Source: Thermosynechococcaceae cyanobacterium MS004
Lineage (GTDB): Bacteria; Cyanobacteriota; Cyanobacteriia; Thermosynechococcales; Thermosynechococcaceae
Reading direction: 5' to 3'
Length of the DNA: 64,000 nt
NCBI GenBank assembly: GCA_022402525.1
Contig: JAKRSB010000149.1
Location: forward strand, 1 to 64,000
Numbering within the stretch: position 1 is the stretch's first letter; every line of letters starts with the position of its first letter. The notes under the pieces are model-generated. The model had not been told where the DNA came from. It did no database searches and saw nothing but the letters and a program-made list of their open reading frames with translations. This document shows, one piece after another, positions 35,893-64,000 of the stretch. The position numbers and the translations under genes were made by a program.

Positions 35893-36822
35893 CTATCCCA
35901 GCTTGCAGTGCGCCTCTCCCCCTCGCTCAATCCAGCCACGGATCAGACCAGAAGTAGACTGTGCGGCCGCACAGTTCCCGGCTCCGTCAATCACAATCAC
36001 CCCACCATCTCCGTTCACCTTGCGGACTAAATAGTCGATACCAGCCTGGGATGCCGCCACCGCGTCCAGGCCCTTAAATTGCACAAAGTCAGAAATTGTT
36101 TTGGCCAGCACCGTCCGCAAAAACTGCTCCCCGTAGCCCGTGGCTGAGACTGCACAGGTTTCGTTGTCGGCAAAGACGCCAGCCCCCACGATGGGCGTAT
36201 CTCCCACACGCCCCCAGCGCTTATTCACCAACCCACCTGTGGAGGTGGCCGCCGCCAGATTGCCCTGAAGATCACGCGCCACCGCGCCTACGGTTCCCAA
36301 CTTTTGCGAGGGTTTAATGCGCTCGTGATCTAGGGTCATACGCCCTGCGGCTTGGGCTTCGGCAAGCTGCAGGATTCGGGCTTCGGTAATAAAGTATTCG
36401 TCTGGATAGGTTGTGACCTCACAAAATTTTGCAAATTCTAGGGCACCATCTCCCACCAGCAAGACATGATCTCCCTGCTCTAAAACGCGCCGCGCTAAGG
36501 CAATCGGGTTTTTAATGTGTTTTACACAGGCCACAGCTCCCGCCCGCAGGTCGCTACCGTTCATGAGCGCCGCATCCATCTCGACCTTGCCCTCCGCATT
36601 CAATACAGAGCCTTGCCCTGCGTTATAAAGGCGATCATCTTCTAACAGCATGACGCAATGCTCCACCACATCTAGAGCGCTGTCGCCCTGCTCTAGACGC
36701 GATCGCCCTTGCTCAAGGATGGCGGTAATGCTCTGCTGAAAGGTGGCTTCGCTGGCCTCGTGCTTGAGATCCTCTAGGGCACCTGCTCCGCCATGAATCA
36801 TTAGAGAATAGGAATTAGACAT
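35893..36822 (-). CDS. Isoaspartyl peptidase / plant-type L-asparaginase (Ntn hydrolase)
   Basis: A 309-residue precursor of the type III asparaginase family that cleaves isoaspartyl dipeptides and asparagine. It would self-process before Thr177 (KLGTVGAVA), which becomes the N-terminal nucleophile of the beta chain. The N-terminus MIHGGAGALED and STGGLVNKRWGRVGDTPIVGAG are family signatures. Such enzymes also finish cyanophycin breakdown (beta-Asp-Arg), which may be relevant to the cyanophycin-synthetase relative 14 kb away. Confidence 0.93.
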   Translation of the reverse strand: MSNSYSLMIHGGAGALEDLKHEASEATFQQSITAILEQGRSRLEQGDSALDVVEHCVMLLEDDRLYNAGQGSVLNAEGKVEMDAALMNGSDLRAGAVACVKHIKNPIALARRVLEQGDHVLLVGDGALEFAKFCEVTTYPDEYFITEARILQLAEAQAAGRMTLDHERIKPSQKLGTVGAVARDLQGNLAAATSTGGLVNKRWGRVGDTPIVGAGVFADNETCAVSATGYGEQFLRTVLAKTISDFVQFKGLDAVAASQAGIDYLVRKVNGDGGVIVIDGAGNCAAAQSTSGLIRGWIERGGEAHCKLG

Positions 36823-50423: not shown

Positions 50424-53400
50424 ATGAAAATTCTGCACACCCAAACGCTTCGCGGCCCAAATCATTGGAGCGTCGATCACTCAAAACTCCTTGTCCTGCG
50501 GCTAGATCTGGCGGAGCACTCCCTTCTTTCTTCAGACAGAATATCTGCTTTCTATAAGAAGCTTTTGCAGACTTTGCCTAGCCTTGAAGAGACCCTTATC
50601 CCTCGTGGGCCAGTCGCCAAGATTAGCCCACGAGGGCAGAGTATTTTTTTAGAGGACATCTTCGCGCAGGTAGCCTTAGAGCTTCAGCGACTAGCCGATA
50701 TGCCTGTTGAGTTTTATCAGAGCCGGAAAGTAGATACTCCAGGTCAAGATACTCTAGGTCAAGGTGCTCCAGATAATTCTTTGGAAGTTACTTCCCATAA
50801 CATTGATCAAAATTCAATTTATCAAAACTCAATTTATCAAATTGCAATTGAATACCGGGTTGAAGCGGCAGGTCGCTATGCAGCAAGGGCTGCGCGGCGT
50901 CTTTGCCAAAGTCTCCTAGAAGCTGGAGTCTACCCTAAAGCCGAACTCCAAAAAGACCTTAAAGACCTAATGGAACTGCGGTCTGAGGAGTCCCTTGGCC
51001 CCACCACCGAAGTGTTGATCCAAGAGGCTGAAGCCCTCGGCATCCCTTGGATATCTTTAGAAACCTGTCACCTACTCCAGTTTGGCTACGGAAAGTATCA
51101 AAAGCGGATTCAGGCGTCGTTGACCTCCCGTAGCAATATTTTGGGCGTTGAACTGGCTGGCCATAAGGAACGAACCAAAAAAATCTTAAGCAGCATGGGA
51201 GCGCCCGTTCCCCAGGGGATCGTCATCTATTCGTTCCGTGAGCTAGAGGATGCGATCGCGCAGATTGGCGGATATCCCGTGGTCATTAAGCCCCTTGATG
51301 GGAATCATGGCCGAGGCATTACCCTGGATATTCAGTCTTGGCAGCAGGCCGAGGTTGCCTACGATCGCGCCAGAGATGTGTCGCGGGGCGTCATTGTCGA
51401 GCATTTCTATCAGGGCCGAGATCACCGGATTTTGGTGGTGAATCATAAGGTCGTTGCGGTTGCCGAACGAGTCCCCGCCCACGTCATCGGCAGTGGGAAA
51501 GACACGATCGCAGCGCTGGTGCGCCAAGAAAACCAGGATGTGCGTCGCGGGAAAGGCCATGATAATTTGCTCACGCGCATTGAGCTAGATGACGCCGCCG
51601 ATGAAACATTGAACCGCCAAGGCTACACCTTGGACACCGTTTTGCTGCCAGGGCAGGTCGCCTACCTACGGGCAACGGCCAATCTGAGTACGGGCGGCAT
51701 TGCCATTGACCGCACCGACGAGATTCATCCTGAAACCCGCTGGCTTGCAGAACGGGTTTCCCGCATTATTGGCCTAGATATTGCCGGAATTGACGTAGTT
51801 ACGACAGATATCACCCAGCCCCTCAGTGCGGCAGATGGGGTGATTGTGGAGGTAAATGCTGCCCCTGGCCTCCGGATGCATGTGGCTCCCAGTCAAGGGA
51901 AAAGCCGGAATGTGGCCGCGCCAATTTTAAGGATGCTGTTCCCCCCTGGAGCGCCCACTCGGATTCCTATTGTGGCGGTGACGGGTAGCAACGGCAAAGC
52001 AGCGCCCACGCCGTTAATGGCCCATATCCTGAAACAGATTTATGGTGCGGTGGGCTTTACCACGGCGGATAGCGTTTATATCAGCGATCGCCGGATTAAC
52101 CCTAGGATTCCAGATGCTCAGGCGCAGCATTCTGAGATGGATCATTCTGAGACTTATCATTCAGAGATTCATCGCCATACCCAGCTCGTTTTGCAAGATC
52201 CAACTGTGGAGGTTGCGGTCTTAGAAACCGCACCAGAGAGCATCTTAGATAATGGTTTGGCCTTTGCCTACTGTGATGTTGGGGTTGTGCTCAATGTGGC
52301 CGCAGATCAGTTAGGGACAGGGGACATTCATACCCTGGACTATAGGGCAACGGTAAATGCCGTGATTGCAAAGGCAGTCCATTCCGGGGGCTATGTCATT
52401 CTCAATGCCGATGATGAACGGGTTGCAGCAATGGCTGGACAGGTGCGCGCTAAAGTCGCCTATTTTTCTATGGAGCCAGAAAACTCACTCCTGCGATCGC
52501 ACATAAGCCAGGGGGGCATTGCGGCTGTCTATGACCAGGGCTGGCTTGTCCTTTGGGAGGACGCCTGTGTCCATCGCATTGAAAACGTGTCCGCCATCCC
52601 GCACACGGTCGGCGGGGCTACTCCTTACTTGATTGCCAACGCCCTTACGGCCTGTCTGACGGCCTTTGTGCAGGGGGTGAGTGTGGCGCAGATTCGCGCT
52701 GCGCTGCACAGTTTCCAGCCGTTGGTACAAAGTCACCCAGGACAGCTTCAGCTCTTTAACTTGGCCCAGAACTTTGCCCAGTCTCCATTTCAGTCTTCGT
52801 TTGATTTGCGCAAGCTGTTCCCAGAGAGTTCCCCCGCAACCCTAGGGAATGGATCGGCCACAAACGGTCAAGCCAATCATGTCCAGCCTATTCCGGCTGA
52901 GTCGCTCAGCAATTCCCTGAAATCTGCGATCGCCCCTAGCAATGGGGGGGCACATTATAAAGACCTAAGCTATAAAGACCTAACTTTGCTCACGGCCAAT
53001 GGAAACGGCCATCTCCAAAACGGCTTTGCGCAGTCGTCGAATGTACAGGCAGGGGACGTTGAAACCAATGGAAAGATCAAGGGTCAGCGCCCATTAAAAG
53101 CTGACCCATTAACAGCTAGCCCATTAGCGGACAGCAGGCAGGCTCTAATTGCGGAAATACTGCCCAAGGTCATTGCTGCGGAGGAAGCGCTCACAGCGAC
53201 TTTCAAAAAAGCACTCAGCAAAGTTGAGACAATAAAGCGGCGCGGGATTCAACGATCGCTGGCTGACCAAACCGCCAAGGCCAAAACCTGGGTTGAGGCA
53301 CAGGCACCTGTTGCGAGGCAGTTTGTGACCCACTCCGCACACAGATTTGCCGAACAGATCGTTGAAAAGGCCACTGAGAATTCCATTATCGCTGGCACGA

Positions 53401-53801
53401 TCGCACTTGCCCTTGGGCAAACGGCAGTAGGTGCGGTAAGCACGAAGGGCAAAGCACTGGGGAGAAATCTGAGCGCGATTGCCTGGAGACGGTTTAAGAA
53501 GGCAACCCAGCTAGTAGACCCGTCTGACTTTGAAGTAGTGCTTGCGGAGCTAACGGTGCTCTTGGGCAAGGATGAACGCATTAAGAAGGAAGGATTTATC
53601 TTCCAAGGCTCTGCGGAAGGTGTAAATGTTTATCTAGAGGACGGTACACCCCTTTGCATTAAGGGCGTCCTACAGGCTTCTAGAGATAGTCGATTGCCCT
53701 ATCGTCTGGGCAAAATGCAGGAGGCGATCGCACTGCTCAAGGGTGAAGTCCTTTTGCAGCCCACAGCTCAGGATGGATCAAAACAGCTTGTAAAGCGCTG
53801 A
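50424..53801 (+). CDS. Cyanophycin-synthetase relative with degenerate Mur-ligase lobe and long C-terminal extension
   Basis: A 1125-residue homologue of CphA. The N-terminal domain (MKILHTQTLRGPNHWS) and ATP-grasp domain (about 215-500: KPLDGNHGRGIT, VIVEHFYQGRDHRILVV, GHDNLLTRI, RATANLSTGG, VIVEVNAAPG) look intact. In the Mur-ligase lobe the P-loop expected as GTNGKTTT reads GSNGKAAPT (521-529) and the TARGGILR motif reads TAPESILD (about 602-609). Similarity stops after PGQLQLFNLA (about 770), so the final ligase subdomain (VDYAHNP and following) is absent. About 345 residues of unknown type replace it, with helical, Lys/Ala-rich and slippage-repeat segments. No cphB is adjacent. It may add only one amino acid, use another substrate, or be structural. 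Confidence 0.88.
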   Translation: MKILHTQTLRGPNHWSVDHSKLLVLRLDLAEHSLLSSDRISAFYKKLLQTLPSLEETLIPRGPVAKISPRGQSIFLEDIFAQVALELQRLADMPVEFYQSRKVDTPGQDTLGQGAPDNSLEVTSHNIDQNSIYQNSIYQIAIEYRVEAAGRYAARAARRLCQSLLEAGVYPKAELQKDLKDLMELRSEESLGPTTEVLIQEAEALGIPWISLETCHLLQFGYGKYQKRIQASLTSRSNILGVELAGHKERTKKILSSMGAPVPQGIVIYSFRELEDAIAQIGGYPVVIKPLDGNHGRGITLDIQSWQQAEVAYDRARDVSRGVIVEHFYQGRDHRILVVNHKVVAVAERVPAHVIGSGKDTIAALVRQENQDVRRGKGHDNLLTRIELDDAADETLNRQGYTLDTVLLPGQVAYLRATANLSTGGIAIDRTDEIHPETRWLAERVSRIIGLDIAGIDVVTTDITQPLSAADGVIVEVNAAPGLRMHVAPSQGKSRNVAAPILRMLFPPGAPTRIPIVAVTGSNGKAAPTPLMAHILKQIYGAVGFTTADSVYISDRRINPRIPDAQAQHSEMDHSETYHSEIHRHTQLVLQDPTVEVAVLETAPESILDNGLAFAYCDVGVVLNVAADQLGTGDIHTLDYRATVNAVIAKAVHSGGYVILNADDERVAAMAGQVRAKVAYFSMEPENSLLRSHISQGGIAAVYDQGWLVLWEDACVHRIENVSAIPHTVGGATPYLIANALTACLTAFVQGVSVAQIRAALHSFQPLVQSHPGQLQLFNLAQNFAQSPFQSSFDLRKLFPESSPATLGNGSATNGQANHVQPIPAESLSNSLKSAIAPSNGGAHYKDLSYKDLTLLTANGNGHLQNGFAQSSNVQAGDVETNGKIKGQRPLKADPLTASPLADSRQALIAEILPKVIAAEEALTATFKKALSKVETIKRRGIQRSLADQTAKAKTWVEAQAPVARQFVTHSAHRFAEQIVEKATENSIIAGTIALALGQTAVGAVSTKGKALGRNLSAIAWRRFKKATQLVDPSDFEVVLAELTVLLGKDERIKKEGFIFQGSAEGVNVYLEDGTPLCIKGVLQASRDSRLPYRLGKMQEAIALLKGEVLLQPTAQDGSKQLVKR

Positions 53802-53942
53802 AGGTAGAGTTTAGCGACCTTTGCCCATCCCCTCTTTAAATTAGGCTGTCACCCGATTAGGGTTGGCGAAGGATCGGATGATTGTCCTGATCTGTAAACT
53901 AGAAAGGTAAAGGCTCATCTGTTTCCCAATTCAGCAGCCCCG

Positions 53943-54263
53943 ATGACAACCGTTTTCTCAGAACACATTCAGATCACGCCTGATGTCTGCGGTGGCAAAC
54001 CCCGTGTTGCAGGTCATCGTATTCGCGTCCAAGACATTGCGATTTGGTACGAGCATCTCAATATGTCCCCTGACGATATTGTTTACCACTACCCCAGCAT
54101 TACCCTAGCTGATGTTCATGCTGCCTTAGCCTATTACTATGACCACCTAGACGAAATTCGTCAGGATATCCGCGAGAGCAAGGCTTTCGCCAGCCAACTG
54201 GCAACCCAGACGCCTTCCATTTTGGAGCGCAAACTCAAAGAAAGAAATGTCAGGGCAGATTAA
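53943..54263 (+). CDS. DUF433 protein, antitoxin-like
   Basis: A 106-residue protein with the DUF433 winged-helix core (ITPDVCGGKPRVAGHRIRVQDI, then YPSITLADVHAALAYYYDH). DUF433 genes normally precede and overlap a DUF5615 PIN-like toxin gene. Here the overlapping partner begins correctly at 54247 but breaks off after about 14 codons, so the antitoxin appears orphaned. Its first ~45 bp and upstream region are duplicated at 54360-54653. Confidence 0.9.
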   Translation: MTTVFSEHIQITPDVCGGKPRVAGHRIRVQDIAIWYEHLNMSPDDIVYHYPSITLADVHAALAYYYDHLDEIRQDIRESKAFASQLATQTPSILERKLKERNVRAD

Positions 54264-54297
54264 GTTTCACCTTGATGAGAACTTATCTAAGACCGCC
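54247..54297 (+). pseudogene. Truncated DUF5615-type toxin remnant
   Basis: The frame starting MSGQIKFHLDENLSK overlaps the DUF433 end by 17 bp, exactly the arrangement of DUF433-DUF5615 pairs. FHLDENL is the N-terminal motif of DUF5615 (PIN-like). After it the sequence no longer resembles the family, and soon runs into a copy of the cyanophycin-synthetase 3' end. Confidence 0.65.
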
Positions 54298-54359
54298 AGC
54301 CATGACAGGGAAAACAAGGGCAAATTCACTCAAGACCCTTCTGAATCGGAGACAATTGA

Positions 54360-54653
54360 TCTCCCTATCGTCTGGGCAAGATGCAGAAGGCGATCGCACT
54401 GCTCAAGGGTGAAGTCCTTTTGTAGCCCACAGCTCAGGATGACCCAAGGCAGCTTGTAAAGCGCTGAAGATAGAGTTTAGCGACCTTTCCATCCCCTCTT
54501 TAAATTAGGCTGTGTCACACGATTGGGTTTGGCTAAGGATTGGATGATTGTCCTGATCTGTAAACCAGAAGGGTAAAGGCTCATTTGTTTCCCGATTTAG
54601 CAACCCCTATTACAGCCGTTTTCTCAGAACACATTCAAATCACGCCGGATGTC
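54360..54653 (+). repeat. Degenerate copy of the synthetase 3' end, spacer and DUF433 start
   Basis: Aligns with 53694-53987. It is colinear without gaps (offset 666) to the synthetase TGA, then has small indels through the spacer and into the DUF433 start (TTTTCTCAGAACACATTCA). It carries an in-frame TAG in the synthetase part, and the DUF433 ATG is lost (ATTACAGCC for ATGACAACC). Non-functional duplication. Confidence 0.9.
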
Positions 54654-54809: not shown

Positions 54810-56504
54810 CTATCCTTTGGGTACTACTCCAGTGGGAAGTTTGTACGCTGGAACAGTGGTGGACGTCTCTTTGCAAGGGTTTCCAACCGCTGGTGTACAT
54901 ACTAGCGCCCCTGTTGCAATGTTATAGAGCTTTTCATCTTTCGACGTAGAGCCTCCAGGAGTGCAGCCGTCAGAGCCGTTTCCGACACCGTTATTACATT
55001 TATTAGAACTACTGCTATTGGTATAGGCTGTAGTTGTCGTTGTGGTTGGTGTAATAGTTGCTAGCACAACCAAATCCTGCATGTCGTAAGCCGTCGAACT
55101 TTTGCTTGTGGTTCCTAACTCAAACAAGTAGATGACTTGATTTTTTGCAAGGGCAACCTTACCAGTTGTGGTATCAATTAGGGGAAGTCCGGTCAAAGGG
55201 TTAGTTGACGTCGAGCTCATGAATGAATCAATTGGTCTTTGCCCACCAAAAGGGGTGAAGAGGGGAACAGTATCGCCATCAACCAGGGTTAAGACTTGCG
55301 ATCCTTGACTTGTAGCAGAGTTGGCGCTGAAGGAGAATCTTGAGCAAACTGAACCATTGCCTGCTATCCCCGTAATGTCCAACCTTGCGCCAGCAGGGAC
55401 ATTATTAAACGTTACATCTTGTCCAATAGCGCCTAATGCTCTGGGAGCACCTGTGATAGGTGTGGTAGTAGTTGAGGTTGTAGACCTACCCCTTCTATTG
55501 GTTGTGGTTGTGGTCGTAGTTACATTGATGTTAATTGTGCCAGAAACGGGAATATTTGCGCCACCAGGGCCGCAAGTAATAGCACCCCCTAAGTTACGAA
55601 CAGTCATCGTTGAGGTTGAAGCCATCGTCACGACTCCGCTGGAACTCGTGAATGCAGGAGGCAGCACTGGAGCCACGGGAGGCGTAGAAGGAGATGAGGA
55701 CGGAGAAGGAGATGGAGACGGAGATGAAGATGAGCTTGCTACGGGAGTAGGTAAAACTGCAACGCTAGCGCCACCTGAGATATTCGACACTTGCGAAGCA
55801 ACTTTTGTCCCTTGAATGCCAGTGCTTATGCTCATTCCATAAATCTCTGGCTGTCCCATGAGCTTTTTGATTTGCCCTAACTGGCTGACTTCAGCGGTTT
55901 TACCGTTAGGATCGACGCAGGCGTAAAATGCTGCATTTCCACTCAAGGTTCCATCAGAGCAAGTTGGTGTAACTGTAGAGCCACCAACCTTATCAATCAA
56001 TGCTTGATGCTTCCAAGTGCTTGAATCGGTACTGTCATAAGTCCCATTGGCATTAAATGTAGGCCCCCAGCGATAAACAACCTGCGGCCCAGACCATTTT
56101 CCGGTCTTGGGCGTGGCAGAGTAATACACAATAGGATCTGCCAATCCAGGTACAGTCAGGACTAAAGCCTTGTTAACGCTGTCTTCATCGATCTGACTGC
56201 TTGGGGGGTTGAAGTTTGAAGAAATCTCTGCGTTGGTTTTGGAACTGCCGGTTGGATCAATACTACTCGCAGTTTGGATTTCCGACGAAATAAAGTTAAG
56301 AGAGCGGTTGATTTCCATACGGCGTTCACTTTTCGCGTTGGCGGTATTGCTGGCATCCAGCATACTTGCAACGCTAGACCCCGATAATGCAACCACTACT
56401 GAGGTTACAGTTGCTGCAACCAATAGGTCGGTCAGTGTAAAACCTTTATCGGATTGTTCTTTGCCTACTAAATTCAACAGCCTGCTAGATAGCTTGGTTT
56501 TCAT
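54810..56504 (-). CDS. PilW/HpsC-like pseudopilin, long form
   Basis: A 564-residue type IV pilin-like protein. The prepilin site is KG|FTLTD with the following hydrophobic helix LLVAATVTSVVVALSGSS; processing and N-methylation by PilD are expected. RRMEINRSLNFISSEIQTA is as in PilW/GspJ and the cyanobacterial HpsC group. The large C-terminal part contains a Ser/Pro tract (about 258-275) and Thr-rich tracts, probably an extended stalk. Start at ATG 56504 with AAGGAG upstream. Last gene of a four-pseudopilin operon. Confidence 0.82.
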   Translation of the reverse strand: MKTKLSSRLLNLVGKEQSDKGFTLTDLLVAATVTSVVVALSGSSVASMLDASNTANAKSERRMEINRSLNFISSEIQTASSIDPTGSSKTNAEISSNFNPPSSQIDEDSVNKALVLTVPGLADPIVYYSATPKTGKWSGPQVVYRWGPTFNANGTYDSTDSSTWKHQALIDKVGGSTVTPTCSDGTLSGNAAFYACVDPNGKTAEVSQLGQIKKLMGQPEIYGMSISTGIQGTKVASQVSNISGGASVAVLPTPVASSSSSPSPSPSPSSSPSTPPVAPVLPPAFTSSSGVVTMASTSTMTVRNLGGAITCGPGGANIPVSGTININVTTTTTTTNRRGRSTTSTTTTPITGAPRALGAIGQDVTFNNVPAGARLDITGIAGNGSVCSRFSFSANSATSQGSQVLTLVDGDTVPLFTPFGGQRPIDSFMSSTSTNPLTGLPLIDTTTGKVALAKNQVIYLFELGTTSKSSTAYDMQDLVVLATITPTTTTTTAYTNSSSSNKCNNGVGNGSDGCTPGGSTSKDEKLYNIATGALVCTPAVGNPCKETSTTVPAYKLPTGVVPKG

Positions 56505-57275
56505 TAATTCTCTAAACTCCTTGTGATAGGTAATGACCATGCGCGGTAGCGCAATCAAAAAATGTGCAAGCTTTTCTGTCCAAACAAGTGAAGGGACAAC
56601 TCAGAGTAAAGTTTTTACTCAATCCATATATGTTCTCCCCTTAAAAACTGGCAGCGGATCTCCAGCCATCTCTAGACCTATGCCTTCTGACTATTAAGCC
56701 CCTCGAACTTTTGAAGAAAGAATTATTTTGCCTATATTCCAACCTTGATGCCAATCCATGCATCTTTATTCTATTTTCGTAGAAAAAAAAGAATCTGACA
56801 CTGGTAGAAATACTGAGATTAGCGAGTGAGGATAGAGTTCAATGATATCTCTATCTCCTTTCTAAGCAGCATGTTAATAATATCTAGAATTGCTTCTAGC
56901 CCACATTCCGCTGTTTCGAAAGGCAAAAAATAATTAAATCCAGAATGCTTTAACGATAAGGCTTCTAAGGATTCAGCGTTTTTGAGCAGATGTCCTAAAA
57001 TTCTCAGTAAGCTTGGTTTATTGAGAATCAGATAGACGGTGATCGCTACGATCCTCATTGCTTCGTTTTAATTATTTTTTGACCCTTTTGATCGGCGGAA
57101 GGTGGGTTCTAGAATTATCGGAGTAGAAACTATGAATGTATATCTTGGCAAGCTTGTGTCAAAAAACATACAAATAGACTTGCATTGCCAATCAAAAACT
57201 TATTTGAATAAATACAGTAGTAGCTTGTTGCCTGATGTATCGATTCAAGTAAACTTAAGTGCAGAATTTGCTATA
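56505..57275. other. Spacer inside the minus-strand pseudopilin operon
   Basis: 771 bp, AT-rich, much longer than the other gaps of this operon. A 79-codon minus-strand frame (56819-57058, MRIVAITVYLILNKPSLLR at its start) is open but has no ribosome-binding site or recognised family. I give it little weight. A promoter for the long pseudopilin could be here. Confidence 0.4.
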
Positions 57276-57962
57276 TTAAAGTGGCGAAATACATTTATCT
57301 ACTACAGCTAAAACCTGAGTGTCTCTGATATCTTTTTGAGCCTTCCAATTATTTTGAGCTGTGACTTCCGCTGCGGTCATGTTGTTAGGATCAGCAGGAA
57401 CGGGTTCAGCTGGTAAATCAACAATTGAGGGCACAGTCGAGTCTGCATAGGTTCCAGTCCGAATAATTCCAATGCCGCTAGAGACAACTAGGCACTTAAT
57501 TACTTGATTGCTGTCTGAATCAGTGCGTCGTACTAAAACAGCTCCAGTATCTTGGGTGATAGGGGTAGTCCCTCTAAGAGAGAACGTAACCGTAGTACCA
57601 GAGCCTCCGCCTGTCCCTACAAGCCCAACAACATTGGCTTGATCTGCAAAATCACGTTCTCCCGTTGGCATACACTCTCGATCTGGCGATGCAACGCCTG
57701 TGACAGCATCAAACTTGACGGCAGAAACTTTCTGAGCGGTTATCATCACAGTGCAAGAACGGCCTTTCTTGACAGCTGAGGACTGAGCTTCTTTCAAGGC
57801 TCCCTCAATTTTAATTGCCGTATCTTTAATCTTTGTATTGGTTAACCAAGCTGACAAACTTGGCGCTGCAACGGCGGCAATTACACCAACGACAACAACA
57901 GCTATAAGGGTTTCGATCAGAGTAAAGCCTTGAGAGCTGCGACTAATAATTTTTTCTTTCAT
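57276..57962 (-). CDS. FimT/GspH-like pseudopilin
   Basis: A 228-residue prepilin with site QG|FTLIE and helix TLIAVVVVGVIAAVAAP. SAWLTNTKIKDTAIKIEGALKEAQSSAVKKG matches the FimT/GspH minor pilin group. Start at the ATG 57962; a TTG eight codons upstream is the alternative. It contains several cysteines and a C-terminal cysteine pair (CLVV, VVDKCISPL) suited to a disulfide loop. Confidence 0.85.
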   Translation of the reverse strand: MKEKIISRSSQGFTLIETLIAVVVVGVIAAVAAPSLSAWLTNTKIKDTAIKIEGALKEAQSSAVKKGRSCTVMITAQKVSAVKFDAVTGVASPDRECMPTGERDFADQANVVGLVGTGGGSGTTVTFSLRGTTPITQDTGAVLVRRTDSDSNQVIKCLVVSSGIGIIRTGTYADSTVPSIVDLPAEPVPADPNNMTAAEVTAQNNWKAQKDIRDTQVLAVVDKCISPL

Positions 57963-58014
57963 TGGATGTAGAATTGCAAACTGCAATAAGAATGTTTTTG
58001 AGGTGACACAAAAA

Positions 58015-58596
58015 TTAGCGACAAGAGAATGAAGCGCCAGGGATAACTTCTGTATAGTACGTATTCATGGGAGTGCCTGTTGCGCTCGTACCCCGATAAA
58101 CGGCATAGGCTATTTGTAGAGTATTGTAAGGAGCCTGGTTCTTAATACTTGTTGTTCGTCTTAAAACATAGGGTCTTTGCCCAATGACGCTCAATTTTGC
58201 AGTATCGGTTTGCTGACCTAAAAGCGTTTGGAGGTCTTTTGCATAGCCACTATCCTGAGTACTAGCATTACATTTCGCAGGTTCAGTTTTATAGTTATCG
58301 CTAATGCCTGCACAATCACTGGCTGCGCTGCCATTTGGGCAATATCCCATATCTTCCCCATTGGCTTCGGATTTTAATTCTGTAAAATCTGATTCAATCC
58401 AGGTTGTGGCTTCACTTGCTTCTTGGGCTTTCACCCGAACGGCTGCGGCTGCCACAAGAGTCTGCATGGCAACGCCCGTCAGGATAACTGTCAGCAACGC
58501 AGCTACAAGCACTTCAACGAGGGTAAATCCTTGATCTCTTTTGATGTGAGGGAGACGATTTAGAATACTAAGGCTTTGCTTGAAAGAAGAATTCAT
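58015..58596 (-). CDS. PilV/HpsB-like pseudopilin
   Basis: A 193-residue prepilin with site QG|FTLVE and helix VLVAALLTVILTGVAMQTLVAAAAVRVKAQ, as in PilV/GspI and cyanobacterial HpsB. It ends in SFSC-R, with a cysteine near the C-terminus typical of a D-region loop. Start at the ATG 58596 (MNSSFKQS). It lies 52 bp upstream of the FimT-like gene. Confidence 0.85.
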   Translation of the reverse strand: MNSSFKQSLSILNRLPHIKRDQGFTLVEVLVAALLTVILTGVAMQTLVAAAAVRVKAQEASEATTWIESDFTELKSEANGEDMGYCPNGSAASDCAGISDNYKTEPAKCNASTQDSGYAKDLQTLLGQQTDTAKLSVIGQRPYVLRRTTSIKNQAPYNTLQIAYAVYRGTSATGTPMNTYYTEVIPGASFSCR

Positions 58597-58689
58597 GTCG
58601 TTACTCAAGGTATGTAGTGGGTTTGTAGTCAACAACAATCATGGGTGCTGGGCAGCACAAGTCATCTGGAAGTCGCCTGTTTATATCTA

Positions 58690-60006
58690 CTATTCTTTGA
58701 TAGGGCCAATTTTAGGAGGGGGCACTGCCTCGACAGGAACATCTGGGTGAGACCATTTAACGCGTGGCTCATCGACTGCAAAGCCAGTCCCCGATGCAGT
58801 CCAACTTTTAACCCAGTAAATTCCTGTATTCTTTTTGTTTACTGTGGCGTCACCGCAGTTTTGGGTTGTGTTGGTTGCGCTTGAAGTTGTACTAATGACA
58901 TCGTAGTTTGGCAGGTGAAGCAGGACATCACAAATGCGTGTCCCTGCATTCAGCGTAAGGGTTCCACTCGTCCCATAAATCTTTACGTCAAACGGCGTGC
59001 AGTTATCGTCTCCTGCACACTGGTTTACGATGGTGCGATCGCTTAAGTCTAAATTTCCACTCACCCAAAGACTAACTCTTTGTCCGGGCGTAATCTTGAA
59101 CGATCCATCAAAGGAAGTGACGTCATACTTATAAATTCCATCAGCATCTGGACTATCGCCTACTCTTGGTAGCTCTTGACCTGGAATCGTCGATATATTC
59201 GATAGTGCGTAGATACCTGTTGTTGGTTTAGGAACACTTGCAGGAACAGTCATTCTGGTTTGGACTGCTGCATAATCTTTACCAGATGGAAAAGTTGCTG
59301 TGGTAGAGCTTCCGCAAGGACGAAGAATATCGCCATTGACCTGCGGGTTACCAGAAACAGACCCGCTGACCCATAAAGGTGCAACGAGCTGACTGGGGGA
59401 AAATACATTGAAGTTAACCTGAACTTGCGAAATTGCTTCGTTAGACTGTCCCCCATTAACGCGGCCTTCTACTGTAAGCGTTCCAAATTGGCTGGCACTA
59501 GAGCTACCGTCAAATCTGTAGCTTAAAAGTCGAAATTGACCTTTTCGCCTTGTTTGATCGGTTTCAGTATCGCTGGGGTCTACTTCTCTCCAGCTAGCGT
59601 TAGCCCAGCCTTGAATCGCGGATTGAGCCGATGAGGGAGTTGAAGTTGTGAGACTGCAAACTGCGTTTAGGTTAGATGGTAGATTAGCGGCCAATGCCCA
59701 ACTTTGTGCTGTACCGGTATCGCTACAAGTTCCATCACTATTCCAATTTCCTACGCAAGTAGGAAACCTAGCAATAGTACGGTATTGATTTATGACTGCT
59801 TGAATTTGGGTAATGCCAGATTGTGCAGCAAGCCTGCTACGGGCGCTATCTTTTGTATTGATAGATGTGACCCTATCGTCCTGCGATCGCACGATCGCCG
59901 TCGTTGCCAACAAAACCAAAATGAGCCCCATCCCCATAGCAAGCGGAATGGCAAAACCCTCTTCACTGCTTCGCTTTTTAACTGCAATAGGGACTTGACT
60001 TTTCAT
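58690..60006 (-). CDS. PilX-like pilus assembly protein
   Basis: A 438-residue protein, first of the operon. The N-terminus EEGFAIPLAMGMGLILVLLATTAIVRSQDD is a prepilin-like helix (possible EG|FAIPL site). It is followed by ARSRLAAQSGITQIQAVINQYR, resembling the PilX N-terminal module (normally AAEAGL). The C-terminal part is beta-rich with cysteine pairs (CVGNW, CAGDDNC). Start at the ATG 60006. It probably belongs to the pilus priming complex with the three downstream pseudopilins. Confidence 0.8.
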   Translation of the reverse strand: MKSQVPIAVKKRSSEEGFAIPLAMGMGLILVLLATTAIVRSQDDRVTSINTKDSARSRLAAQSGITQIQAVINQYRTIARFPTCVGNWNSDGTCSDTGTAQSWALAANLPSNLNAVCSLTTSTPSSAQSAIQGWANASWREVDPSDTETDQTRRKGQFRLLSYRFDGSSSASQFGTLTVEGRVNGGQSNEAISQVQVNFNVFSPSQLVAPLWVSGSVSGNPQVNGDILRPCGSSTTATFPSGKDYAAVQTRMTVPASVPKPTTGIYALSNISTIPGQELPRVGDSPDADGIYKYDVTSFDGSFKITPGQRVSLWVSGNLDLSDRTIVNQCAGDDNCTPFDVKIYGTSGTLTLNAGTRICDVLLHLPNYDVISTTSSATNTTQNCGDATVNKKNTGIYWVKSWTASGTGFAVDEPRVKWSHPDVPVEAVPPPKIGPIKE

Positions 60007-61271
60007 GATGAACCGCATAGGGATAGCTAATACCTGAAGAAAAAGCAATGTTAAACTTCAGTGCATATATTATTCATTCCCTAAATATAAATAAATTCGA
60101 CAAAACCTATCACCGTATTTTTGCGGATTTTTTAAAGAAAAGATTCCTATATATTAATGTTTAGTTAGCTTTTTTATATAGACAGTTAAAGCTGAAGCTT
60201 CAGTCTGTATCCAATTCAACGGTATGGTTTCAGCGTTATTGAGAGGGATCAACGCCTCTTTGCATTAAGGGCATCCTACAAATTTCTAGAGATAGTCTAT
60301 TGCCCTATCGTCTGGACAATAGACAGGAGGCGATCGCACTGCTCAAGGGTGAAGTCCTTTTGCAGCCCACAGTTCAGGATGGATCAAAACAGCTTGTAAA
60401 GCGCTGAAGGTAGAGTTTAGCTTTTTTCTGAGTATCTAGCCTGGAGCTAGAATTCTAGTAACTCAAGGTAAAAGTAGGCCCAGGGGCTTCTACAAATAAA
60501 GTGTCAGAGTAGCATTCAGTAGAACTACTGAGGCGTGTTGATGCTTCCAAAAATATTATTTATTTAGAGAATTTTTCAGAAATTCTAAAATCTTGCCGCC
60601 CTGCCAAAGCTGTACAAGATATTTGCTAATAAGCATTTTAGGTTTTATTACTGCATACATAGAGGTGAACCAGACTTGCAATAGTTTACTTAATCGTTTC
60701 AACATCAAGCATCAAACACAGATTTAACTAGTTTTAACCTGACTGTATAAAGACGTTCAGAAAAGAAAGGTTTCATACACTCTATTCATAAAGTCTTTGA
60801 TTTGAAAGGATTGTAGGATGGCAGCGCTTTTTAGCGCATGCATATTCAGCCAGAGTTTATACTGCTCTGAAAGCTTCTGCAGAAAATATTTTTAAATTAA
60901 TACAAATGTTAGATCAGTTAAATGGGTGGGAATTTTAAGATCATGCAGTTATTGACATGAATATGTGAATAACGACAGCAATTTATTTTCTATGTATTCA
61001 TTCAATTCGCAAATCATTAGAGTTGTTGCCTTATAAAACAGAAAATGGCTGAAAGCCTCTCTATATATAGGTTTCAAACATTTTTGGCAAAATTGACTAT
61101 AACCCATACGGTGTAAGGCTTTTAGCGATTTTGAGAATTAAAAAGCAACAGGTCTATTAAACTTTAAGTTTGAATGAATACTGAAATTCAGCAATACATT
61201 CAGTTAGCTTTTGATTTTTAATTGCCTACTTGAATTCTAGACAAAGCTATTTTTGCAGAGCGATTTAGGGT
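60007..61271. other. Long AT-rich spacer between divergent pseudopilin operons
   Basis: 1265 bp with no supported gene. It must hold the promoters of both operons. The only recognisable element is the third copy of the synthetase 3' end (60252-60421). The remainder has stop codons in all frames at short distance and long A/T runs. Confidence 0.6.
60252..60421 (+). repeat. Second displaced copy of the synthetase 3' end
   Basis: Aligns over 170 bp with 53646-53815 without gaps and with 12 mismatches by hand count, covering the last ~52 codons, the TGA and 14 bp beyond. With the copy at 54360-54653 it brackets the minus-strand pseudopilin operon in the same orientation. Confidence 0.92.
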
Positions 61272-61934
61272 ATGCATGTGTCTAGCAGTAACATCACAAT
61301 CAAGACGATTAGCCGTTCTCGGAACTGTCAACCGATAAGAGGGGCAACGTTGATAGAGGCGTTGATCACGATTGTAGTTGTTGGTGTGTTGGGTGCGATC
61401 GCAGCACCTAGCGTTTCAAAAATTGGCAGTAACCCACTGGTCGATACGACAAATCTTGTGGCGAGTGGGTTCCGTGCAACGCGCACAATGGCAATCTCTC
61501 AGACTTCGCCCATCAAAATTAAGCCCAAAGGTCGACAGGCCATTCCTAGCGGAACTTCAGTAGCGGGAATCAATACTGAGTTTGAGATTTACCGAGCAAC
61601 TTCAACAAACGTAGCCTGTAATGCAGAGACAGGGTGGGCGTTAGACAGGAGGAGCAATATTACTGAAGATTACTTAACTTTTGGAAAGGCAAATGTTTCC
61701 TCCGATAAGCGGATTACCCTGCAAGCTGCACAAGTGGATGGTGTTGCCCTTACCAGCGCGACAAGCTGGGAGATTTGTTTTAATACTCGTGGAATGGCAA
61801 GTACAACGACAACTCGGACAAATGATTTTGTCGGGAACAGCCTAGTGCTGACGCTTCAGGAGGGCAGTGACACAACACAGCGACGACGAATTGAAATTTT
61901 TCCGGCAGGGGGGGTTCAGGTTTATGACAATTAA
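61272..61934 (+). CDS. FimT/GspH-like pseudopilin (second set)
   Basis: A 220-residue prepilin with site RG|ATLIE and helix ALITIVVVGVLGAIAAP. The +1 residue is Ala instead of the usual Phe. FRATRTMAISQTSPIKIKPKG is the FimT/GspH-type segment after the helix. First gene of a plus-strand operon; its last 11 bp overlap the next gene. Confidence 0.85.
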   Translation: MHVSSSNITIKTISRSRNCQPIRGATLIEALITIVVVGVLGAIAAPSVSKIGSNPLVDTTNLVASGFRATRTMAISQTSPIKIKPKGRQAIPSGTSVAGINTEFEIYRATSTNVACNAETGWALDRRSNITEDYLTFGKANVSSDKRITLQAAQVDGVALTSATSWEICFNTRGMASTTTTRTNDFVGNSLVLTLQEGSDTTQRRRIEIFPAGGVQVYDN

Positions 61935-62397
61935 GTTGATCAATAAGTTTTTAACTCAAAAAAAGTCTAAAAATCAAGGTTTTACGCTCGTTGAAACGGT
62001 TGTGGCTATGGTGATGTTTGCGGCCATTATCGGAGGGCTAGCGCCGCTGATGATGGTGTCTCGAACTTTTGCACTGCAGAGCAGTAACCGCATTGGCGCG
62101 ATCGCAGTTGCTCAAGAGATTATGGACTCCCTTCGTCAAGGGGATGTTAGCAACATGCCTCTTTCTGGAACAACTACAACCTTGCCAGCAGGTAACTCTA
62201 TTGCCAATCTTCCTTACAAAGGCAAAATTTACTCTGCAACCGTTACATATTGCGAAATTAGTTCCCACTGCGATGCAACAACACGGCATATCAAAGTTAG
62301 CGTTTACCAAGATGGCGATACTGCCGTTACACCAAGTCGAACCGCTAGTGTACAACCGATTTATCAATTGGAGACTATTTATGTCCGTCTTCAATAA
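61924..62397 (+). CDS. PilV/GspI-like pseudopilin (second set)
   Basis: A 157-residue prepilin with site QG|FTLVE and helix TVVAMVMFAAIIGGLAPLMMVS. VAQEIMDSLRQGD resembles PilV/GspI. I start at the ATG 61924 (MTIKLINKF), overlapping the previous gene by 11 bp; the longer frame only reads through that gene. The end overlaps the next gene by 17 bp. Confidence 0.85.
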   Translation: MTIKLINKFLTQKKSKNQGFTLVETVVAMVMFAAIIGGLAPLMMVSRTFALQSSNRIGAIAVAQEIMDSLRQGDVSNMPLSGTTTTLPAGNSIANLPYKGKIYSATVTYCEISSHCDATTRHIKVSVYQDGDTAVTPSRTASVQPIYQLETIYVRLQ

Positions 62398-63634
62398 ACG
62401 AGCTTTATCACGACAGTTATCCTCAAGGACTGTTAAGGGCTTTACGCTACTTGAGTTAATTGTTGCGTCAGGAGTTTCCCTTACAATTCTGGGCATTGCC
62501 TTAGGAATGCTTTCTGAGCAGCGACGCTGGATGCTGAGTGATCGTACTCGTGCCGTTGCAAATGACAACCTCCGTCTAGTCTCCGATCTAATTGGGCAAG
62601 ATATTAGGCAAGCAGGAGAAAGACTAGAATCAGATGGCTTACTTCCAAGCATTAGTATTATTCCAGGCGCAAATACAACTGATCCCAGTACTCTTGTTCT
62701 ACAGAGGAAACTATTATCTGAGACGCTACCTGTCTGTCAGAATATTGTTGCAGGAGCTACAGGAACAACCACAATTGACGTTTCGGTTATTACAGGTTCA
62801 CCGATCACCAACTGCAACTATTCTTACTCCATGCCTAGCGGGGGTGAACCATCAACTGCTCTAAATACACTTAGGCCAACAGATAACTTGAGATCGTGGC
62901 GAACATTTCGATGTACTCAAGATAGTTCATCGGCAAATGCCGGAACCGACCCCTGCACCACCACCACATCTGGTGCTACAAGTTGGGCCTATATTCATGA
63001 TCCAGTTAATAATCGAGGTGAATTCTTTCAATATAGTGCTGAGGAACAAGGTTCATGCAGTTCCAGTACACTAACATCTCGTACCTGTCAGAAAATTAGG
63101 CGGGTAGGCTCTTCATGGACATACTCCTATACATACGACCCCCTTGGTACAGCCTCTGCTCAGCCTAGGCTGTACCTTCTTGAAGAACGACGATACAGTC
63201 TAGCAGCCGATACCAGTACAAGTCGAACTGACGACTACGTCCTACAGCTTAGTATTAATCGCCAAACTCCAAGGCGTATTGCAAATCAAGTTCGAAATTT
63301 TAAGGCTTGGGCAAAGGTTCCTCCTTCTTACACCTCAGCGCCTTTTAATGCACCTAATAACTGGGGTTGTGCAGTAAGTGGAAGCTCCAGTAATTCTCCA
63401 AATCCTGCGTCTCCTAATCAGTGGTATTGCGACACATTTAATGTCAATGTGAATAATTCTGATCCTGTTCAACGACTTCAAAGTCTTAAGGATTGGCAAG
63501 AATTACAGGGCATAAGAATTACCCTTACAGGAATCAACCCAAATGAGCAGGCATTAAAGGTTGATGAAACCAGCTCAAATAATCTTCTCAAACTCAGTTC
63601 CGAGTTCTTGCCTCGAAACGTTATATCTAAATGA
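62381..63634 (+). CDS. PilW/GspJ-like pseudopilin (second set)
   Basis: A 417-residue prepilin: MSVFNKRALSRQ, site KG|FTLLE and helix LIVASGVSLTILGIALGML, then RAVANDNLRLVSDLIGQDIRQAGE as in PilW. The upstream in-frame extension lies wholly inside the previous gene and is excluded. The region 340-400 has cysteines suited to a disulfide-bounded D-region. Confidence 0.87.
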   Translation: MSVFNKRALSRQLSSRTVKGFTLLELIVASGVSLTILGIALGMLSEQRRWMLSDRTRAVANDNLRLVSDLIGQDIRQAGERLESDGLLPSISIIPGANTTDPSTLVLQRKLLSETLPVCQNIVAGATGTTTIDVSVITGSPITNCNYSYSMPSGGEPSTALNTLRPTDNLRSWRTFRCTQDSSSANAGTDPCTTTTSGATSWAYIHDPVNNRGEFFQYSAEEQGSCSSSTLTSRTCQKIRRVGSSWTYSYTYDPLGTASAQPRLYLLEERRYSLAADTSTSRTDDYVLQLSINRQTPRRIANQVRNFKAWAKVPPSYTSAPFNAPNNWGCAVSGSSSNSPNPASPNQWYCDTFNVNVNNSDPVQRLQSLKDWQELQGIRITLTGINPNEQALKVDETSSNNLLKLSSEFLPRNVISK

Positions 63635-63647
63635 GCATAGTGGGAAA

Positions 63648-64000
63648 ATGAAAAGTCTTTCTTCTCAAACTCAACGGACGTTATTCAATCTCTTATTGAA
63701 ATTACAGCCTGTATCATCGCGTAGCGAGGGCGGCTACATTATTGTCGTTGTCGCTGCAATGATTGTCGCCGTGAGCGGTATGCTCTTGGCCGGAGAGTTG
63801 GTGAGTAGAGTTGACAATAATAGTACTAAGGCATCAGGAAATAGTACCGCAGGCTTTTATGCTGCAGAAGCAGGTCTTAACCTTAGGGCAAAAGCGATTA
63901 AAAGTACGTTTGAAGGGTATAACGTCCCTAGTGGGACTTCACCAAGTAGTGGAAATGCTTGTCGAAGTTCCAGTAACGTAGGGACGGGTGACTTTATATG
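63648..64000 (+). CDS. PilX-like pilus assembly protein (second set, partial)
   Basis: Open from the ATG 63648 to the window end (117 codons). The N-terminus has SEGGYIIVVVAAMIVAVSGMLLAGE as hydrophobic helix and STAGFYAAEAGLNLRAKAI, the PilX signature (AAEAGLN). It follows the PilW-like gene by 13 bp and completes the fimT-pilV-pilW-pilX order. The C-terminus is beyond the window. Confidence 0.82.
   Translation, partial: MKSLSSQTQRTLFNLLLKLQPVSSRSEGGYIIVVVAAMIVAVSGMLLAGELVSRVDNNSTKASGNSTAGFYAAEAGLNLRAKAIKSTFEGYNVPSGTSPSSGNACRSSSNVGTGDFI

Follow-up and report, generated by a model that had tools for sequence, protein, structure and literature searches.

Gene content of the locus

The window, a stretch of 64,000 nucleotides of MS004 DNA, carries a relative of the cyanophycin synthetase gene cphA, hereafter cphA′, and the frame that the initial annotation had placed at 50424-53801 proved to be real, staying open over its whole length (Table 1). 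Cyanophycin is a nitrogen-storage polymer, and CphA1, a three-active-site machine, is a model for coordinated polymerisation that also attracts biotechnology interest. Its G (ATP-grasp) site adds Asp, its M (Mur-like) site adds Arg and a Zn-peptidase in the N domain makes primers (PMC9262961, PMC9427784). Scoring of the CphA′ protein against TIGR02068 gave matches of 765 and 42 bits and a whole-protein score of 809, which falls below the equivalog cut-off of 850. The canonical CphA1 of the same genome (C65:10310-12916) reached 1209 bits and has intact GTNGKTTTT and TARGGILR motifs; canonical cphA and cphB, looked for at the suggestion of the initial annotation, are thus both present elsewhere in the genome, side by side. 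No CphA2-like third match appeared in the TIGR02068 search of the MS004 genome. Alignment to the solved SuCphA1 (830 bits) covered residues 1-783, and the similarity to CphA ended at residue ~783, the Mcore/Mlid border, exactly where Mlid should start.

Table 1. Features of cphA′ (positions in the window; residue numbers of CphA′ in brackets)
Feature	Position	Strand	Observation
cphA′, CphA1-derived paralogue	50424..53801	+	Single uninterrupted frame, 1125 codons (1125 aa)
N domain (1-175), degenerate	50424..50948	+	35/53 CphA1-invariant columns
Former Zn-peptidase/primer site (54-86)	50583..50681	+	Equivalents of C59, H79, E82, H83 are I, D, A, Q
Low-complexity N-domain insert, ~29 residues (108-136)	50745..50831	+	From alignment; not in WC_1 orthologue or CphA1s
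G domain (176-512)	50949..51959	+	99/99 CphA1-invariant columns
Mcore (513-783), degenerate	51960..52772	+	55/81 CphA1-invariant columns
Mur P-loop GSNGKAAPT	51984..52010	+	T500A, T501A, T502P; K499 kept
TAPESILD replacing TARGGILR	52227..52250	+	R561P
AADQLG replacing AADHLG	52299..52316	+	H586Q
Unconserved low-complexity linker (784-899)	52773..53120	+	At Mlid start point; 4% identity to WC_1 orthologue
Predicted helical stretch (900-1012)	53121..53459	+	Secondary structure from low-confidence models only
C-terminal tail domain (~1013-1110)	53460..53753	+	Common to WC_1 orthologue and two non-CphA G249 proteins

The surroundings of cphA′ showed traces of duplication. Two remnants of the 3′ end of the gene (53630-53815) lie downstream, at 54296-54481 and 60236-60421 (72% and 90% identical), and both contain stops; combined with the first part of the neighbouring DUF433 gene (53847-53987, 54513-54653), this 3′ end forms a partial tandem duplication with a spacing of 666 nt. 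At 54810-64000, flanked by these tail remnants, lie clustered genes for prepilin-like proteins (N-terminal methylation motif, GspH). At 35893-36822 on the minus strand, 13.6 kb upstream of cphA′, lies a gene for a plant-type asparaginase/isoaspartyl dipeptidase of the IaaA family (PF01112). Enzymes of this type carry out the last step of cyanophycin degradation. The MS004 cphB-cphA pair sits on a contig other than that of cphA′ and the IaaA-type gene; in a relative (G161), an IaaA-like gene adjoins cphB-cphA. For nifH, a marker of N2-fixation context, no match rose above the cut-off.

Conservation of the three active sites

Published catalytic residues were mapped on an alignment of 17 CphA1s, six CphA2s and the variants described here, and the columns constant across the 17 CphA1s were counted as invariant for each domain. 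The N domain, which the initial annotation had described as well kept, is not: besides the loss of invariant columns and the insert listed in Table 1, its primer site has been erased. The Cx19HxxEH motif, defined in PMC9262961 and carried by 83% of nr70 CphA1s, is lost with all four of its residues replaced, and the changes across the site comprise H57T, C59I, F67I, H79D, E82A and H83Q.

The Mur-like site is likewise degenerate. Its motifs read GSNGKAAPT and TAPESILD, as reported when the site was first called dead, and the disappearance of the last ligase subdomain, from VDYAHNP onward, was confirmed by alignment, so that the whole Mlid lobe is absent. The P-loop lysine (K499 equivalent) is nevertheless present, as are E558 and D585; what has been lost are the Mg ligands (T500A, T522A), R561 (R561P) and H586 (H586Q). 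In CphA1, K499A, deletion of Mlid and D585A/H586A each impair or abolish activity (PMC9262961, PMC9427784). A repetitive low-complexity insert, HSEMDHSETYHSEIH, found only in the CphA′ protein, also interrupts Mcore (52110-52163, residues ~563-580).

In contrast to these two domains, the ATP-grasp domain bears out its description as well kept, for no invariant column has changed and all nine catalytic residues checked, from the list in PMC9427784, are present (E215, K220, K261, H267, R309, R323, N394, S396 and R458). Arg458 holds the alpha-carboxylate of the incoming Asp (PMC9427784); it is Arg in 17/17 CphA1s and in 4/4 variants (CphA′ and the G235, G256 and G281 copies introduced below) and in 0/6 CphA2s. 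The other marks of a CphA2-type G pocket are also absent from CphA′, which has AT rather than KV at positions 391-392 and His rather than Lys at 267.

Canonical controls retained 90-99% of the invariant columns in G, 95-99% in Mcore and 83-100% in N, against which the 99/99, 55/81 and 35/53 of CphA′ can be set. Branch lengths told the same story. In the Mcore tree they were 0.54 for CphA′ and 0.31 for its orthologue, compared with 0.09 and 0.075 for the canonical copies; in the G tree both variants had branches of 0.16-0.17, compared with 0.10-0.11. Relative to its canonical sister, the branch of CphA′ is thus ~6 times as long in Mcore and ~1.5 times in G. Because G is kept while Mcore and N decay, the Asp-adding site of CphA′ is held by selection and the other two sites are released from it. 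Judged by its residues, only the G site of CphA′ can be active as in CphA1.

An orthologue in the genus and similar copies elsewhere

A diverged orthologue of cphA′ was found in the same genus, on contig JAGVDA010000326.1 of the Thermosynechococcus sp. WC_1 MAG (G235). It reads GTNGKATPT, TAQDEIL and AADQLG at the three Mur motifs, lacks Mlid, has the same tail end and stands in the gene order cphA′-cphB-cphA, all on one strand. Synonymous divergence between the two genes is near saturation (pS 0.6-0.7), and dN/dS is lowest in G (~0.13), slightly higher in Mcore (~0.18) and highest in the tail domain (~0.34), which is therefore under weaker constraint than G. Since the same losses and the same tail recur in this orthologue, cphA′ is a conserved gene and not an error. 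Position 267 is Gln in the WC_1 protein and, because H267A inactivates the G site of SuCphA1 (PMC9262961), this copy may be inactive or altered. In a third congener (G249, 76% complete), the search for CphA gave no match.

In the G-domain tree, CphA′ and the WC_1 variant fell among the CphA1s of their own genus, CphA′ beside the canonical CphA1 of its own genome, and the CphA2 rows formed a distant clade on one side of a branch with a support of 90. The WC_1 variant grouped with the canonical copies in this tree and with CphA′ in the Mcore tree, where the two form one group; a sliding-window analysis gave only patchy nucleotide evidence of G-domain gene conversion between copies. By this placement CphA′ is a duplicate of its own genus's CphA1, not a CphA2. 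The suggestion of a third architecture, apart from CphA1 and CphA2, is thus supported by the conserved orthologue and the separate phylogeny of CphA2. No third CphA class was found named in the open-access papers searched.

Where any of 390 cyanobacterial genomes had a second copy, it was almost always a CphA2 (~340 bits, ~640 aa), and in the family of the cphA′ host this survey showed no second copy in the CphA2 range. According to PMC9427784, neither the Mur P-loop nor Mlid is present in CphA2; CphA′ has likewise lost P-loop function and Mlid. When CphA homologues were surveyed for P-loop loss, as first proposed, decay of the Mur site together with absence of Mlid was found in the WC_1 copy, with the tail, and in two further CphA1 paralogues without it, each a single-genome case in a fragmented assembly. 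One (G256:C242) is 738 aa long, reads GSQGKTITT and TAAREIL and retains 96/99 invariant columns in G and 43/81 in Mcore; the other (G281:C314) is 751 aa long from its Met, reads GTSHKTLAT and TAIDDIL and retains 93/99 and 49/81. Since both are placed apart from the CphA′ pair and from each other in the G-domain tree, the loss of Mlid and of the Mur site is an independent event in each. The G281 copy (L058, G281:C314:3000-7500) has an intact Cx19HxxEH motif beside its altered P-loop and missing Mlid and may be a natural 'N+G only' enzyme; no other such copy was seen among the 42 genomes of its family. Three further candidate truncated copies were rejected, one (G096) being an assembly gap with canonical motifs and the others (G059/G304) having frames that are broken or without a start.

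The C-terminal tail

The tail of CphA′ can be aligned to that of the WC_1 orthologue over residues ~900-1110, and its last ~95 residues hold the shared AIAW..F.KATQLVDP and, further on, GV.VYL..GTP. No match to the tail was found in Pfam, NCBIfam or the PDB, and nothing in viral contigs, phages, plasmids or PHROGs; a scan of genome contigs matched only the contig of the WC_1 orthologue. A profile built from the two tails, however, detected the C-terminal domain in two non-CphA proteins of G249 (3e-10 and 2e-7). The tail, first described as novel, is so in having no match in the three reference databases, but it is not unique. The 546-aa G249 protein, which carries the domain at its C-terminus, is 36% identical to the WC_1 orthologue over 86 residues (pairwise E 3e-12) and matches CphA′ itself more weakly (3e-5); the 872-aa protein matches the tail domain weakly at its C-terminus. 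Each of the two genes is followed by one for an AAA-type ATPase, as seen at G249:C179 (L082, 6806-10848, encoding the 872-aa protein) and again at G249:C26. The G249:C179 contig resembles a conjugative element in that it also encodes a TraG/TraD-type coupling protein, and tblastn of the two proteins against plasmids gave nothing.

Because non-CphA proteins of G249 share it, one of them encoded on the contig with the TraG/TraD gene, the tail end looks like a domain common to mobile-element-type proteins that was fused onto CphA′, where it may serve in docking or localisation. Structure prediction gave a mean pLDDT of 42 for the tail, from a 2-row alignment, and of 30 for the whole protein, from 3 rows. 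The earlier idea that a helical tail anchors CphA′ to cyanophycin granules found no support, as the structure models were of low confidence and the only relatives of the tail domain have no visible link to cyanophycin.

Proposed function of CphA′

Our main reading, to which we give a probability of about 45%, is that cphA′ is a lineage-specific CphA1 duplicate turned into a single-activity, 'G-only' enzyme that adds Asp and partners CphA1. Among the functions first proposed for it, Asp addition fits best and is favoured over dipeptide polymerisation, because every G catalytic residue checked is kept, including the Asp-binding Arg458; a role as primer is opposed by the loss of the N-site. CphA′ would bind free Asp together with ATP and the C-terminal end of a cyanophycin chain, extending each chain by one Asp. 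As the G domains of CphA1 make no poly-Asp (PMC9427784), a G-only enzyme would need CphA1 for Arg; CphA′, adding no Arg, would depend on the cell's own canonical CphA1, either by joining it in one oligomer or by acting on the same chain ends. The effect would be either to shift the Asp-addition step or to leave chains ending in bare Asp, so that growth or trimming is paused. Most simply, CphA′ would act within the CphA1 oligomer or next to it, which fits the WC_1 gene cluster. Mixing of CphA′ into CphA1 tetramers is uncertain, because the equivalent of W672 is Cys in CphA′ and mutation of W672 turns SuCphA1 dimeric.

A non-catalytic subunit, which would bind chains, ATP or Asp and, having no turnover of its own, modulate or localise CphA1 by way of its tail or of mixed oligomers, is a rather unlikely alternative. 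Two of the three active sites are dead, the WC_1 orthologue has H267Q and both orthologues carry the tail in place of Mlid, all of which would suit such a role; a structural function would not obviously demand that 99 of 99 G invariants, ATP and Asp contacts among them, be retained. We consider it unlikely that a CphA1, having lost its Mur site and Mlid, became a convergent CphA2, a beta-Asp-Arg dipeptide polymerase re-using the dipeptides released by CphB. The modules lost are those lost in CphA2 (PMC9427784), the genome holds cphB and an IaaA-type gene, and CphA2 is common elsewhere but no second copy in its range was found in this family, yet the G site has none of the CphA2-type changes at R458, H267 and 391-392, and M-domain mutants of TeCphA1 gain no CphA2 activity (PMC9427784). 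Very unlikely, and by this analysis largely refuted already, is an early decaying pseudogene or assembly error: the acceleration of Mcore and the N domain, the low-complexity inserts at 108-136 and ~563-580 and the truncated tail fragments nearby could be read that way, but the frame is open over 1125 codons, the G domain is fully constrained and a separately assembled genome has an orthologue that, although its synonymous sites have diverged almost to saturation, shows the same tail and losses.

More broadly, and on the doubtful side, CphA′ may belong to a new class of Asp-only 'G-subunits' that arose from CphA1 on three or more occasions, each time as Mlid was removed and the Mur site decayed, and that act in trans with CphA1 to control how chains grow or in what state their ends are left; the subunit of this genus would also have acquired a domain that occurs in a protein of the conjugative-element type. 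That three lineages besides CphA2 show this reduction suggests an adaptive route taken repeatedly and not a single accident. Natural paralogues with two sites dead and the third kept by selection are ready-made dissections of CphA1. They can show whether Asp addition runs in trans and whether removal of Mlid favours G-only chemistry, a speculation made for CphA2 in PMC9427784.

Compared with CphA1 (TIGR02068), CphA′ is homologous throughout N, G and Mcore, its G domain being 78% identical to that of the CphA1 of its own genome, but it is without the N-site, the Mur site and Mlid and gains a tail of ~340 residues. With CphA2 it shares the lack of Mur P-loop function, Mlid and the N-domain peptidase motif, which leaves one ATP-grasp site; CphA2, however, is a separate clade of ~640-aa proteins with no such tail, and R458, H267 and 391-392 are changed there and not in CphA′. 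The G256 and G281 copies resemble CphA′ in that G is kept, the Mur site is degenerate and Mlid is missing from the same border onward, and differ from it in having no tail and, in G281, in retaining the N-site.
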